Below, piece after piece: positions 2,989 through 30,188 of a stretch of 49,788 nucleotides of DNA. Position 1 is the stretch's first letter. Each line of letters starts with the position of its first letter. The DNA is from Nitrospirota bacterium (lineage in GTDB: Bacteria; Nitrospirota; Thermodesulfovibrionia; Thermodesulfovibrionales; JdFR-88), in NCBI GenBank assembly GCA_021813405.1, contig JAKAKS010000032.1, positions 1 to 49,788 on the forward strand, read 5' to 3'. Position numbers and translations under genes: made by a program. The notes beneath the pieces are model-generated. The model worked only from the letters and a program-made list of their open reading frames with translations, was not told the DNA's origin and searched no databases.

Positions 2989-3031
2989 ATGACACAAACT
3001 TCATGACATATGTCATATTGACAATATCATG
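2989..3031. promoter_or_regulatory. Multi-half-site operator, copy A (probable Rrf2 target)
   Basis: The segment holds ATGACA (2989-2994), a palindrome ATGACA-N2-TGTCAT (3003-3016), TTGACA (3018-3023) and TATCATG (3025-3031). The same order and spacing recur at 27881-27923 upstream of the Rrf2-family gene. The palindrome and exact spacing argue for a protein-binding site, most simply the operator of that Rrf2 regulator. The third half-site coincides with a -35 box, so binding would be expected to block the rightward promoter. Confidence 0.6.
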
Positions 3032-3048
3032 TCCGGCCGGGTTATGAT
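3018..3048 (+). promoter_or_regulatory. Sigma70-like promoter overlapping operator A
   Basis: A consensus -35 TTGACA (3018-3023) and -10 TATGAT (3043-3048) are separated by 19 bases; the alternative -10 TTATGA (3042-3047) gives 18. The start site would fall near 3054-3056, inside the first hairpin of the structured region and about 350 bases before the helicase gene. Confidence 0.5.
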
Positions 3049-3154: not shown

Positions 3155-3402
3155 ACTTAACAGAAGCAAAGCCGGATGAAACGGATGGAACACGCGGAAC
3201 ATAAATAAGGGTTGTAAGTGGCCGGAATCAAAAGATAATCCTGAAACGGCTGGAACATATAAAAAGAAATGGGGCTGGGTGGCGCGGAAGACTGGTGGGA
3301 AACCTTGGCCTCTATTTGCCAAATCCTTTCAAACGATTGTAATATACCGGGCTGTCTCGCCGCATCAAAAATTAGAAATGAGAATCATCCTGAGCGCCTC
3401 AT
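3155..3402. repeat. GGA-rich intergenic sequence with a 19-bp repeat shared with 28143-28161
   Basis: This gene-free stretch contains several GGA-centred words (GGATGGAAC, GGAACATA) and a 19-mer at 3251-3269, TGGAACATATAAAAAGAAA, which occurs identically at 28143-28161. A near copy lies at 28305-28320. Beyond this I see no gene in 2719-3402. Confidence 0.6.
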
Positions 3403-27287: not shown

Positions 27288-27755
27288 CTATTTCCGGCTT
27301 TTCTTTCCGGGGGTTATTTCCCCGGCTTCAACTTTTTCCTGGCAGCCGATATTTAGCTTCTGTGTGCTTAATACCTGGGCAAAGTTCTTTTTTGCAAGCA
27401 GCTTTCGGACTTCCTGCCTCACCTCAGTCCATACGGGGTGAACGGTGCAGTAGCCGCTCAGGGAACACAGTTTTTCATCCAGCGCGCATATATTCATTGC
27501 CACCGGTCCTTCAACGGCCTCGACGACTTCCAGAAAATTTATATGCGCCGGCTTCTTTGCAAGCTCAAACCCGCCTTTTACCCCCCTGCGGGATTTTACA
27601 ATCCCTGCCTTTGCAAGTTTCTGGAGTATTTTGGCAAGGAAATCCGCCGGCACGCGGGTGCTCTCCGCCATCTCGCTAATCGCGGCCGGCCCGGCCTTCT
27701 CTGCAAGGTAATATATGCTTCTTATGGCATAGTCGGTTTCCCTTGTTATCTGCAT
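27288..27755 (-). CDS. Rrf2-family transcriptional regulator
   Basis: The 155-residue protein starts at ATG 27755 (MQITRETDYAIRSIYYLAEK), the classic Rrf2 N-terminus. The winged helix reads AISEMAESTRVPADFLAKILQKLAKAGIVKSRRGVKGGFELAK. Two close cysteines lie in MNICALDEKLCSLSGYC (three including Cys103), like the Fe-S ligands of IscR/NsrR. A frame extending to 28109 includes the operator and is not coding. The gene has its own operator (27881-27923) and probably represses itself. Which signal its cluster senses (redox, NO, iron) is unknown. Confidence 0.9.
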   Translation of the reverse strand: MQITRETDYAIRSIYYLAEKAGPAAISEMAESTRVPADFLAKILQKLAKAGIVKSRRGVKGGFELAKKPAHINFLEVVEAVEGPVAMNICALDEKLCSLSGYCTVHPVWTEVRQEVRKLLAKKNFAQVLSTQKLNIGCQEKVEAGEITPGKKSRK

Positions 27756-27880
27756 GCCTATCAGTATCGCGCTTTGACAGATAAATTTCAATACCGGGGC
27801 CCAACGGGGATTTGGTGTTACCCGGTGCCCCGGCACGGTATCCAGCGGCCTTGCCCCTGTAGCTGTCCTGCCCAAAAACC

Positions 27881-27923
27881 ATGATATGCAATTCATGACA
27901 CATGTCATATGGACGATGTCATG
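27881..27923 (-). promoter_or_regulatory. Multi-half-site operator, copy B, in the Rrf2 promoter
   Basis: Half-sites ATGATA (27881-27886), ATGACA-N2-TGTCAT (27895-27908), TGGACG (27910-27915) and TGTCATG (27917-27923) match copy A at 2989-3031 in order and spacing. On the minus strand ATGACA (27903-27908), a 16-base gap and TATCAT (27881-27886) form a promoter for the Rrf2 gene. The operator covers that promoter, as expected for autorepression. Confidence 0.65.
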
Positions 27924-28373
27924 GTTGGTTATGTTATCTATATGGCGTGGTAAATGCCGGGCGTATATTTCCGCCCGGAAAAAGAAAGGAGAATAAATTC
28001 CGGAAAAAGAAAGGAGAATAAATTCAAAAATGGCTTCCGGGCGGGTGGAATCATGCTGGGCCACAAAGCTGAAACATATGGAACAAATGGAACAGGATTG
28101 TGGACGCAAGCGGCGGGAATAAAAAGAAAATCCCGGAATGGATGGAACATATAAAAAGAAAGGGCTTCAGCAATACAGGATTGCCCGGAATTTCAGACAG
28201 GGCATTAAGCTTTAAATTAGGGCCAAACTTTGCGGGGCGGATTGAACGGATTGAACAAATGCCTGGCCCAAGTTGTTGAAATTAAAGAATAATGCCGGAA
28301 TGGATTGAACATATAAAAAAATAAGGCCGGGCCGGTTACAAAAAAATTACTGAACCGTGTACAATATAAGGCT
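27924..28373. repeat. GGA-rich repetitive intergenic region between the Rrf2 and typA genes
   Basis: No gene is visible here. The region carries a tandem pair of 25-bp units (27975-27999 and 28000-28024), at least a dozen GGA words, and direct repeats of CCGGAATGGAT(G/T)GAAC with an adenine-rich tail at 28132-28161 and 28294-28320. Part of the former (28143-28161) is identical to 3251-3269. AAAGGAG within the tandem units looks like a ribosome site but is followed by no ORF. Confidence 0.65.
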
Positions 28374-30188
28374 ATGCCAAAGAGAGAAGACCTTAGAAAC
28401 ATCGCGATAATAGCGCACGTGGACCACGGCAAGACCACCCTGGTGGATGCCATGCTCAAGCAGTCCGGCGTATTCCGCGCAAACCAGCAGGTTGAGGAGC
28501 GCGTTATGGACAGCATGGACCTGGAACGGGAAAAGGGCATCACCATCATGGCCAAGAACACCGCGGTAAAATACGGCACGCATACAATAAACATTGTGGA
28601 CACCCCCGGCCACGCCGATTTCGGCGGCGAGGTAGAGCGCACGCTGAAGATGGTGGATGGCGTTCTGCTTCTGGTGGACTCGTCCGAGGGCCCGCTTCCG
28701 CAGACCCGGTTTGTCCTTAAAAAGGCGCTTGACCTGGGGCTGCCGCAGGTCCTGGTGATTAACAAGATAGACCGCGCGGACGCACGGATACAGGAAGTGC
28801 TGAATGAGGTTTACGACCTGTTTATAGATCTGGACGCCGGGGAGTCCCAGATAGACTTTCCCATCGTTTACACAAACGCCAAGGCGGGCATAGCCAAGCG
28901 GGAACTGGATGAGGAGTCTTCCGACTTAAAGCCGCTTTTTGACCTGATACTCTCCTATATCCCCGCGCCTGACATGGGCGGCGAAAACGACCCTTTGCAG
29001 ATGCTGGTTGCCAATATAGATTATGACGATTACAAGGGCCGTCTGGCCATAGGAAGGATTTTTGCCGGGGAGATTGCCGAGGGCACCCAGGTGGCCGTAT
29101 GCGGCAAAGAGGGCGCTGTCACCAATATGAAAGTGTCTTCCCTGTATGGTTTTGAGGGGCTTGGCAGGGTAAAAATAGAAAGCGCGAAGGCGGGCGACAT
29201 CATCTGCCTTGCCGGTGCGGACTGGATAAATATAGGCGATACAATTACAGACCCGGAGCGCCCAAAACCCATGGCAAGGATTGTGGTGGATGAGCCCACC
29301 ATATCCATGGTCTTCTCCGTGAACACCTCCCCGTTTGCGGGCAAGGAAGGCAAGTTTGTCACCTCCCGCCACTTGAGGGAGCGGCTTGAAAAAGAGCTTC
29401 TGTACAACGTGGCGATCAAGGTTGATTTCACACAGCCTGACGCCTTTACCGTCATGGGCAGGGGCGAGCTTCAGCTTGCCGTGCTCATAGAGATGATGAG
29501 GCGCGAAGGGTACGAGCTTTCCGTCTCGATGCCCGCGATAATCACAAAAGAGATAAACGGGGCGCTGCACGAGCCTGTGGAGCACCTTGTTATAGACGTG
29601 CCGGAGGAGTATATCGGCGTGGTCACCCAGCAGGCCGGCATGAGAAAAGGCAAAATGCGGAAGATGACCGACAACGGAAAAGGCCGGGCAAGGCTGGAAT
29701 ACCAGATACCTTCAAGAGGGCTTATAGGTTTCAGAAGCCAGTTCCTCATTGAAACAAGGGGCACGGGGCTTTTAAACCATATTTTTGACGGGTACGAACT
29801 ATGGCAGGGCCCGATGACAAAGAGGCCAACCGGTGCGCTCGTTTCGGATAGAAAAGGCATAACAACCGTTTACGCTCTCTTTCATCTCCAGCCGAGGGGC
29901 GAGCTTTTCATACAGGAGAACACCGCCGTTTACGAAGGGATGATAATAGGCGAGAACGCCAGGGGGCAGGATATGGATGTAAACTGCATTAAAGAAAAGA
30001 AGCTTACGAACATCAGGGCGTCAAACGCGGACGAGGCCCTGAAGCTGATCCCGCCCAGGGCATTGTCGCTGGAGCAGGCGATAGAGTTTATCAAGGAAGA
30101 CGAGCTGATAGAGGTGACCCCGGCTTCCATAAGGCTTAGGAAGAAGGTGCTGGAGAAGGGCAAGCGTTCAAAGGGGTCATCTATTTAG
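28374..30188 (+). CDS. typA: Ribosome-associated GTPase TypA/BipA
   Basis: The 604-residue translational GTPase has [15 protein letters not shown] (G1), [11 protein letters not shown] (G2), [16 protein letters not shown] (G3) and NKIDR (G4). EF-G-like domains III and V are followed by the TypA-specific C-terminal domain. TypA binds the ribosome and supports 50S assembly, cold and stress growth. TACAAT (28360-28365) lies only eight bases before the ATG and there is no Shine-Dalgarno sequence. Confidence 0.96.

Follow-up and report, generated by a model that had tools for sequence, protein, structure and literature searches.

The 43-bp element that occurs twice in the DNA analysed here (the window, a stretch of 49,788 nucleotides that makes up contig C51 of the 2.9 Mb, 56-contig genome G000 of a Nitrospirota bacterium) is probably an activator site of the Mor/C type joined to a core promoter, and the genome appears to reuse this combination about 70-85 times, in front of a phage-type late gene cluster and of cassettes that are dispersed and for the most part noncoding. 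As read from their sequences, both window copies represent noncoding cassettes of this kind, one upstream of uvrD and the other upstream of typA.

The copies are located on the plus strand at 2989-3031 and 27881-27923 and inspection shows an identical layout, with the half-site order and spacing that a sequence-only reading of the window had described at these positions. The first copy, found by inspection, by the genome pattern search and in the alignment, is preceded by the A-tract AAAAAC (2983-2988; the A's at -5 to -2 and the C at 0 are conserved in 54 copies) and consists of four heptamers in dyad symmetry (2989-2995, 3003-3009, 3010-3016 and 3024-3030). The -35 hexamer TTGACA (3018-3023; family consensus TGGACA) lies between heptamers 3 and 4, and the -10 hexamer TATGAT (3043-3048; positions 55-60 of the family alignment, T48 and A48 conserved) follows after a 19-bp spacer, so that the two hexamers described for this copy are confirmed. 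A 3' module of type B (GGAACA-GGAACA ... GGAACATATAAAAAG; profile model R3, E 2.7e-20) occupies 3183-3271 and ends before uvrD; the suggestion of an operator fused to a sigma-70-type promoter, with a predicted transcript that contains no coding gene upstream of uvrD, is supported. The second copy, seen by inspection and recovered both by the pattern search and by profile model R1, has a -35-like TGGACG (27910-27915) and a weak -10-like TATCTA (27935-27940), followed by two modules before typA (28374-30188), i.e. one of type B at 28076-28163 (R3, E 1.3e-19) and a TTGAAC version at 28239-28326 (R3, E 8.1e-16). Its other neighbour is a gene for an Rrf2-family regulator on the minus strand (27288-27791; PF02082, E 3.8e-35). 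This copy had been placed over the rrf2 promoter, but the promoter inside it is weak in its -10 and directed to typA, away from rrf2. A recognisable BoxA is absent from both window units.

The element had been regarded as a two-copy pair, which is refuted by its abundance in the genome. A search of G000 with exactly the spacing of the sequence-only reading and at most 3 mismatches matched 54 distinct places, and the reversed pattern used as a control matched 0. The suggested genome scan with this spacing thus gives matches far above chance, and they are not restricted to Rrf2-linked targets. Many copies outside promoters had been named as a sign of a mere repeat; the copies are indeed many, but they are in promoter position, each before a conserved cassette. 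A shorter pattern gave 60 matches in G000, 50 in a second species of the same genus (G001) and 0 in 39 other genomes from the family and the order. An operator profile model marks about 65-70 places in G000, and the combined operator and 3' module matches, merged by hand, amount to 85 units (about 70-85 overall). The 54 copies align as one rigid block: the A-tract, then ATGACAT-N7-ATGACAT|ATGTCAT-N7-ATGTCATG, i.e. the four dyad-symmetric heptamers; the hexamer TGGACA (or TTGACA) is at 30-35 and is followed, 19 bp further, by an extended -10 TGnTATGAT whose hexamer is at 55-60. Operator, -35 and extended -10 are near-invariant, and the centre of the dyad lies some 45 bp before the predicted start. 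In about two thirds of the units a convergent gene comes next, thus most units are not gene promoters.

A few individual copies deserve mention. A second operator in locus L030, on the minus strand, precedes a cold-shock-type (CspA-like) gene and no module was detected there. Large, secreted-looking proteins are encoded behind operator copies in L011 (1340-3814) and L012 (842-3394); they are tail-fibre-like by eye, and no family match was found. An upstream repeat, AAAGAGATATTGAGGTGAGGGGTTTCAGNTGTACCAAACACC, with a possible GGTGT/ACACC hairpin, is common to the operators of L009, L028, L041, L043, L056, L057 and L059. An orientation bias of the units with respect to replication was considered and rejected, the mean GC skew in unit orientation being 0.000 (71 loci).

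One operator copy (L054; contig C50, 3101-3143) heads a Mu-type late cluster in the order endolysin, holin-like gene, phrog_436, a 90-aa protein and the terminase large subunit (TerL). In g1 the cluster is cut by contig ends; in relatives it continues with a Mu-type portal, protease, scaffold, capsid, Gp36, Gp37 and tail genes. TerL was found in G000-G006, G008 and G011 as well as in G018 and G030, with up to 71% identity, and TerL and the gene order are kept in 9 of the 12 family genomes examined. The G003 cluster spans about 14 kb and, as judged by eye, is flanked by host genes at either end. A fold search with the 90-aa protein gave nothing significant. The structural cluster is thus vertically conserved within the clade, as is typical of gene transfer agents (GTAs), and from its genes it looks like a domesticated, GTA-like cluster. 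G000 also contains a second Mu-type prophage region (L240; contig C10, 3000-22900) with two Mor-family genes and its own TerL, which is 64% identical to that of the cluster.

The best candidate regulator of the element is Mor rather than Rrf2, because Mor accompanies the late cluster and because different Mor subgroups go with different operator palindromes. Mor-family proteins (PF08765) are present in 13 of 21 genomes (three matches in G000, one in G001) and co-occur with the late cluster across the family. In G000 a mor gene (L056:3563-3862) is divergent from a CI/S24 repressor gene, and the same is seen in G006; close to the G000 pair, on contig C53, a reverse-transcriptase-like ORF, recognised by eye, is found next to IS66-like ORFs (L056:766-1593). 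Two Mor groups can be distinguished, one in G000, G001, G003, G004, G005 and G018, the other in G002, G006, G008 (second copy) and G011. The operator class follows this division, being of the TGACAT type (TGACATATGTCA) in G000, G001, G003 and G018 and of the TAAAC type (TAAACTGTTTA) in G002, G006 and G011, where the palindromes occur both before the cluster and at dispersed units; this is a correlation over few independent cases, as the match follows genus phylogeny, and the cluster operators of G004 and G005 were matched loosely, by eye. The cluster promoter of G018 contains GTGACATGTGTCATATGGACGATGTCC, which is nearly the g1 core, and mor lies directly upstream of this operator.

In phage Mu, the Mor dimer binds a 16-bp dyad centred at -43.5 (PMC4390567). 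Here, too, a dyad, centred at about -45 from the inferred start, precedes a sigma-70 -10, a Mor-family gene is found in the same genome, and the operator co-varies with the activator type, although not independently of phylogeny. In promoters of the Mor/C type such as Mu Pm, the activator site takes the place of a -35 hexamer, but TGGACA/TTGACA is conserved at 30-35 with a 19-bp spacer in our family, and because of this conserved hexamer we prefer to say that the element would work like, rather than that it is, a Mu-type Pm promoter. Two further points speak against Mor: in g1, mor and the late cluster are on separate contigs, and the four-heptamer operator is larger than the site of Mu Mor. 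Furthermore, in G004, G005 and G018 mor and the cluster are kept and no dispersed units were detected, so that the cluster can evidently do without the cassettes.

Another regulator adjoins the cluster itself. A LuxR/NarL-type gene (GerE; L054:3277-3777) is divergent from the late cluster; in g1 it adjoins the operator that precedes the cluster, in G004 and G005 it is a neighbour of the cluster, and heptamer half-sites are usual for this family. We nevertheless consider it quite unlikely that this protein binds the heptamers, since it was not found near the cluster in G002, G003, G006, G008, G011 and G018, while Mor is present in all six and is directly upstream of the operator in G018. The reading that Rrf2 binds the element, controlling itself as well as a transcript upstream of uvrD, draws on the copy between rrf2 and typA. 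Rrf2-family operators (IscR, NsrR and CymR) likewise have a palindrome near a promoter. Copy number and genomic context do not fit: an Rrf2 regulon would be confined to Rrf2-linked sites and include the rrf2 promoter, but there are at least 54 sites, dozens of them in other contexts, and the copy in question faces away from rrf2. With some 54-85 loci, one of them at the head of a Mu-type late cluster, an autoregulatory two-site circuit of Rrf2 is unsupported and we regard it as very improbable; the co-variation of the palindrome with the Mor subgroup across genera also speaks against the idea of a single redox- or iron-sensing regulator for both window copies.

Downstream of the promoter the units have a characteristic structure. 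A BoxA-like site (TGCTCTTTGAAAA) is present in 42 of 62 G000 units as opposed to 13 of 973 random windows, and in 31 of 48 G001 units as opposed to 13 of 739; on the reverse strand the control counts were 0 and 1, respectively. Nus-factor complexes act at BoxA to keep Rho-dependent termination from occurring (PMC4807359, PMC5725501). Whether BoxA and ribosome-binding sites exclude each other was also examined, and only a trend was seen (p 0.10). After BoxA there is a variable stretch and then, on the same strand as the promoter, a module of about 80 bp with three sites, TKGAACA, a second TKGAACA 9-10 bp on and TKGAACAYATAAAAAG about 55 bp further. The type A module contains a WATCAANNNNTTR-like core that we take to be IHF-like.

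Most units have no ORF, and a few have a small helix-turn-helix gene whose end lies within the module. In L010 and L051 such a gene, of 142 and 171 aa, lies between promoter and module, the module overlapping the gene end. Intact helix-turn-helix genes directly before a module are found in G000, G001, G002 and G006, and the homologues of the latter two are similarly placed behind their own operator type. G039, which belongs to another family, has one full cassette copy and many derivatives with internal deletions that keep both ends. We infer that the ancestral cassette was promoter-hth-module and that the noncoding units are derived from it, the promoter having been kept and BoxA gained or kept. 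Since the noncoding units retain both promoter and BoxA, transcription through the module seems to matter. The predicted fold of the helix-turn-helix protein is a helix-turn-helix followed by a helical hairpin, which would suit a small terminase, but a fold search with this model (pLDDT 61) gave no significant match in the PDB or to terminases, the phBC6A51 match having an E of 0.72; a profile comparison with the 90-aa protein before TerL detected no similarity.

The promoter, BoxA and conserved transcribed 3' module, mostly without an ORF, are also what one would expect of a large family of small RNAs that is run as a regulon, the module acting as RNA by binding protein or RNA. We think this unlikely. 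The consensus structure obtained by folding the module RNA is empty and an Rfam scan of the window gave no match, the evenly spaced direct repeats and IHF-like core look rather like a DNA site, and the module in the coding units is at a gene end.

Of 44 G001 regions, 36 could be paired with a unit-bearing G000 region; the G001 region that matches window unit 1 ends at a contig edge. In the pairs, divergence is 5.2% in the operator (biased low, as the pairs were found through it), 5.4% in the -10, 3.8% in BoxA and 2.2% in the three module sites (for BoxA and the module sites, a single species supplied the definition and the other the comparison), as against 7.8% in the whole module, 9.8% in the spacer and 13% upstream. 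The units look maintained and not decaying. The type A module model detects 51 copies in G000, 43 in G001, 29-38 in G006, 17-26 in G011, 11-18 in G003 and 26-29 in G039, with fewer in the family's remaining genera. Where the upstream DNA was read in other genera, the module again follows a promoter in which a palindrome directly precedes a -35-like T(T/G)GAC or related motif, and this palindrome varies by genus (TAAACTGTTTA in G006, G007 and G011, TGACATATGTCA-like in G003, TGAAATATTTCA in G039).

It is possible, if not the reading we favour, that a small mobile cassette, made up of promoter, helix-turn-helix gene and end module, once spread through the genome and left the units as MITE-like remnants, in which the promoter now has little function. 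The copies are dispersed through the genome, many contigs break near units, some g1 copies share a further upstream repeat, and the internal deletions with both ends kept in G039 are of the kind expected. On the other hand, the same loci are occupied in two species, the spacer has changed faster there than operator, -10, BoxA and module sites, the interiors vary in length and sequence, inverted terminal repeats were not seen by eye, and BoxA in noncoding copies argues for selected transcription. No empty sites were found, the two species sharing the loci, and no insertion polymorphism was found, as a unit first seen only in G001 proved to have a G000 counterpart. The 85 units are more evenly spaced than random (CV 0.58 vs 0.93, p <0.001; p 0.0016 on contigs >60 kb), a result that may be biased by the tendency of contigs to break at units and by the merging of the unit list by hand. 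The even spacing fits packaging sites and also transposition immunity.

What we infer for Mor binding, repressor control, BoxA function and the role of the module can be combined into a model. A Mor-type activator would act at the element, and its targets would be a vertically conserved, GTA-like or domesticated late cluster on the one hand, and on the other the dispersed cassettes with operator/promoter, BoxA, sometimes a small helix-turn-helix gene and the 3' module. Relief of the CI/LexA-like repressor beside mor would turn Mor on, and Mor would then activate the particle genes and, simultaneously, transcription across every dispersed module, BoxA keeping Rho off the untranslated RNA. The module would most likely be a DNA site for phage-derived machinery, bound by the helix-turn-helix protein, and DNA packaging is our leading guess for that machinery; a replication start, a transposon end or an RNA function may also be considered. 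In its most specific form, the modules would be chromosomal packaging (or replication) start sites of a gene transfer agent derived from Mu. Transcription driven by Mor and protected by BoxA would make each module competent, and the cell would have chosen start points at intervals of roughly 25-35 kb, the load of about one particle. This form of the model is highly speculative and we would not consider it likely at present.

It is useful to compare the family with known systems. The middle/late Mu promoters Pm, Plys, PI, PP and Pmom, served by Mor/C, have a similar dyad near -44 and a recognisable -10; in our family, late phage genes stand behind one copy, and a Mor-family protein is encoded in the same genomes. 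The family differs in that its operator spreads four heptamers over 43 bp and includes a decent -35 along with an extended -10, and in its tens of dispersed chromosomal copies with mostly noncoding cassettes downstream. Gene transfer agents of the RcGTA type resemble the present system in their compact, clade-conserved cluster of lysis, terminase, portal, capsid and tail genes, as well as in the host genes on both sides in G003, and differ in that here the proteins are of Mu type, a CI-Mor pair is present and putatively co-regulated cassettes are dispersed. Phage satellites (PICI) carry their own small terminase and pac site. They have a promoter of the phage-activator type, a small helix-turn-helix gene and an adjacent repeat site in common with our units, in which there is no integrase or other gene, most copies are geneless and the helix-turn-helix protein is only a putative small terminase. 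The position of the module at the end of that gene recalls the terS/pac arrangement. With its pair of closely set direct repeats, its IHF-like stretch and a further repeat, the module also recalls lambda cosB, Mu attL and transposon ends; this putative nucleoprotein site is unrelated to them in sequence and occurs, as a rule, once per unit. The promoter itself is of a known kind and the dispersed cassette family is without precedent: in the literature searched, we found no described counterpart of a phage-type activator that, as proposed here, drives tens of dispersed noncoding units together with a particle cluster.

According to Sherlock et al. (2019; PMC6854486), evidence that packaging by GTAs starts at discrete sites had not been presented. 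If the modules are packaging or replication sites, they would contradict the view that the choice of host DNA by GTAs involves no discrete starting points (PMC6854486, PMC7947584), and would offer a directly testable system. Even if the units turn out to be old cassettes, uncultured Nitrospirota would have a large Mor regulon, and a prominent repeat family of these bacteria would be explained.
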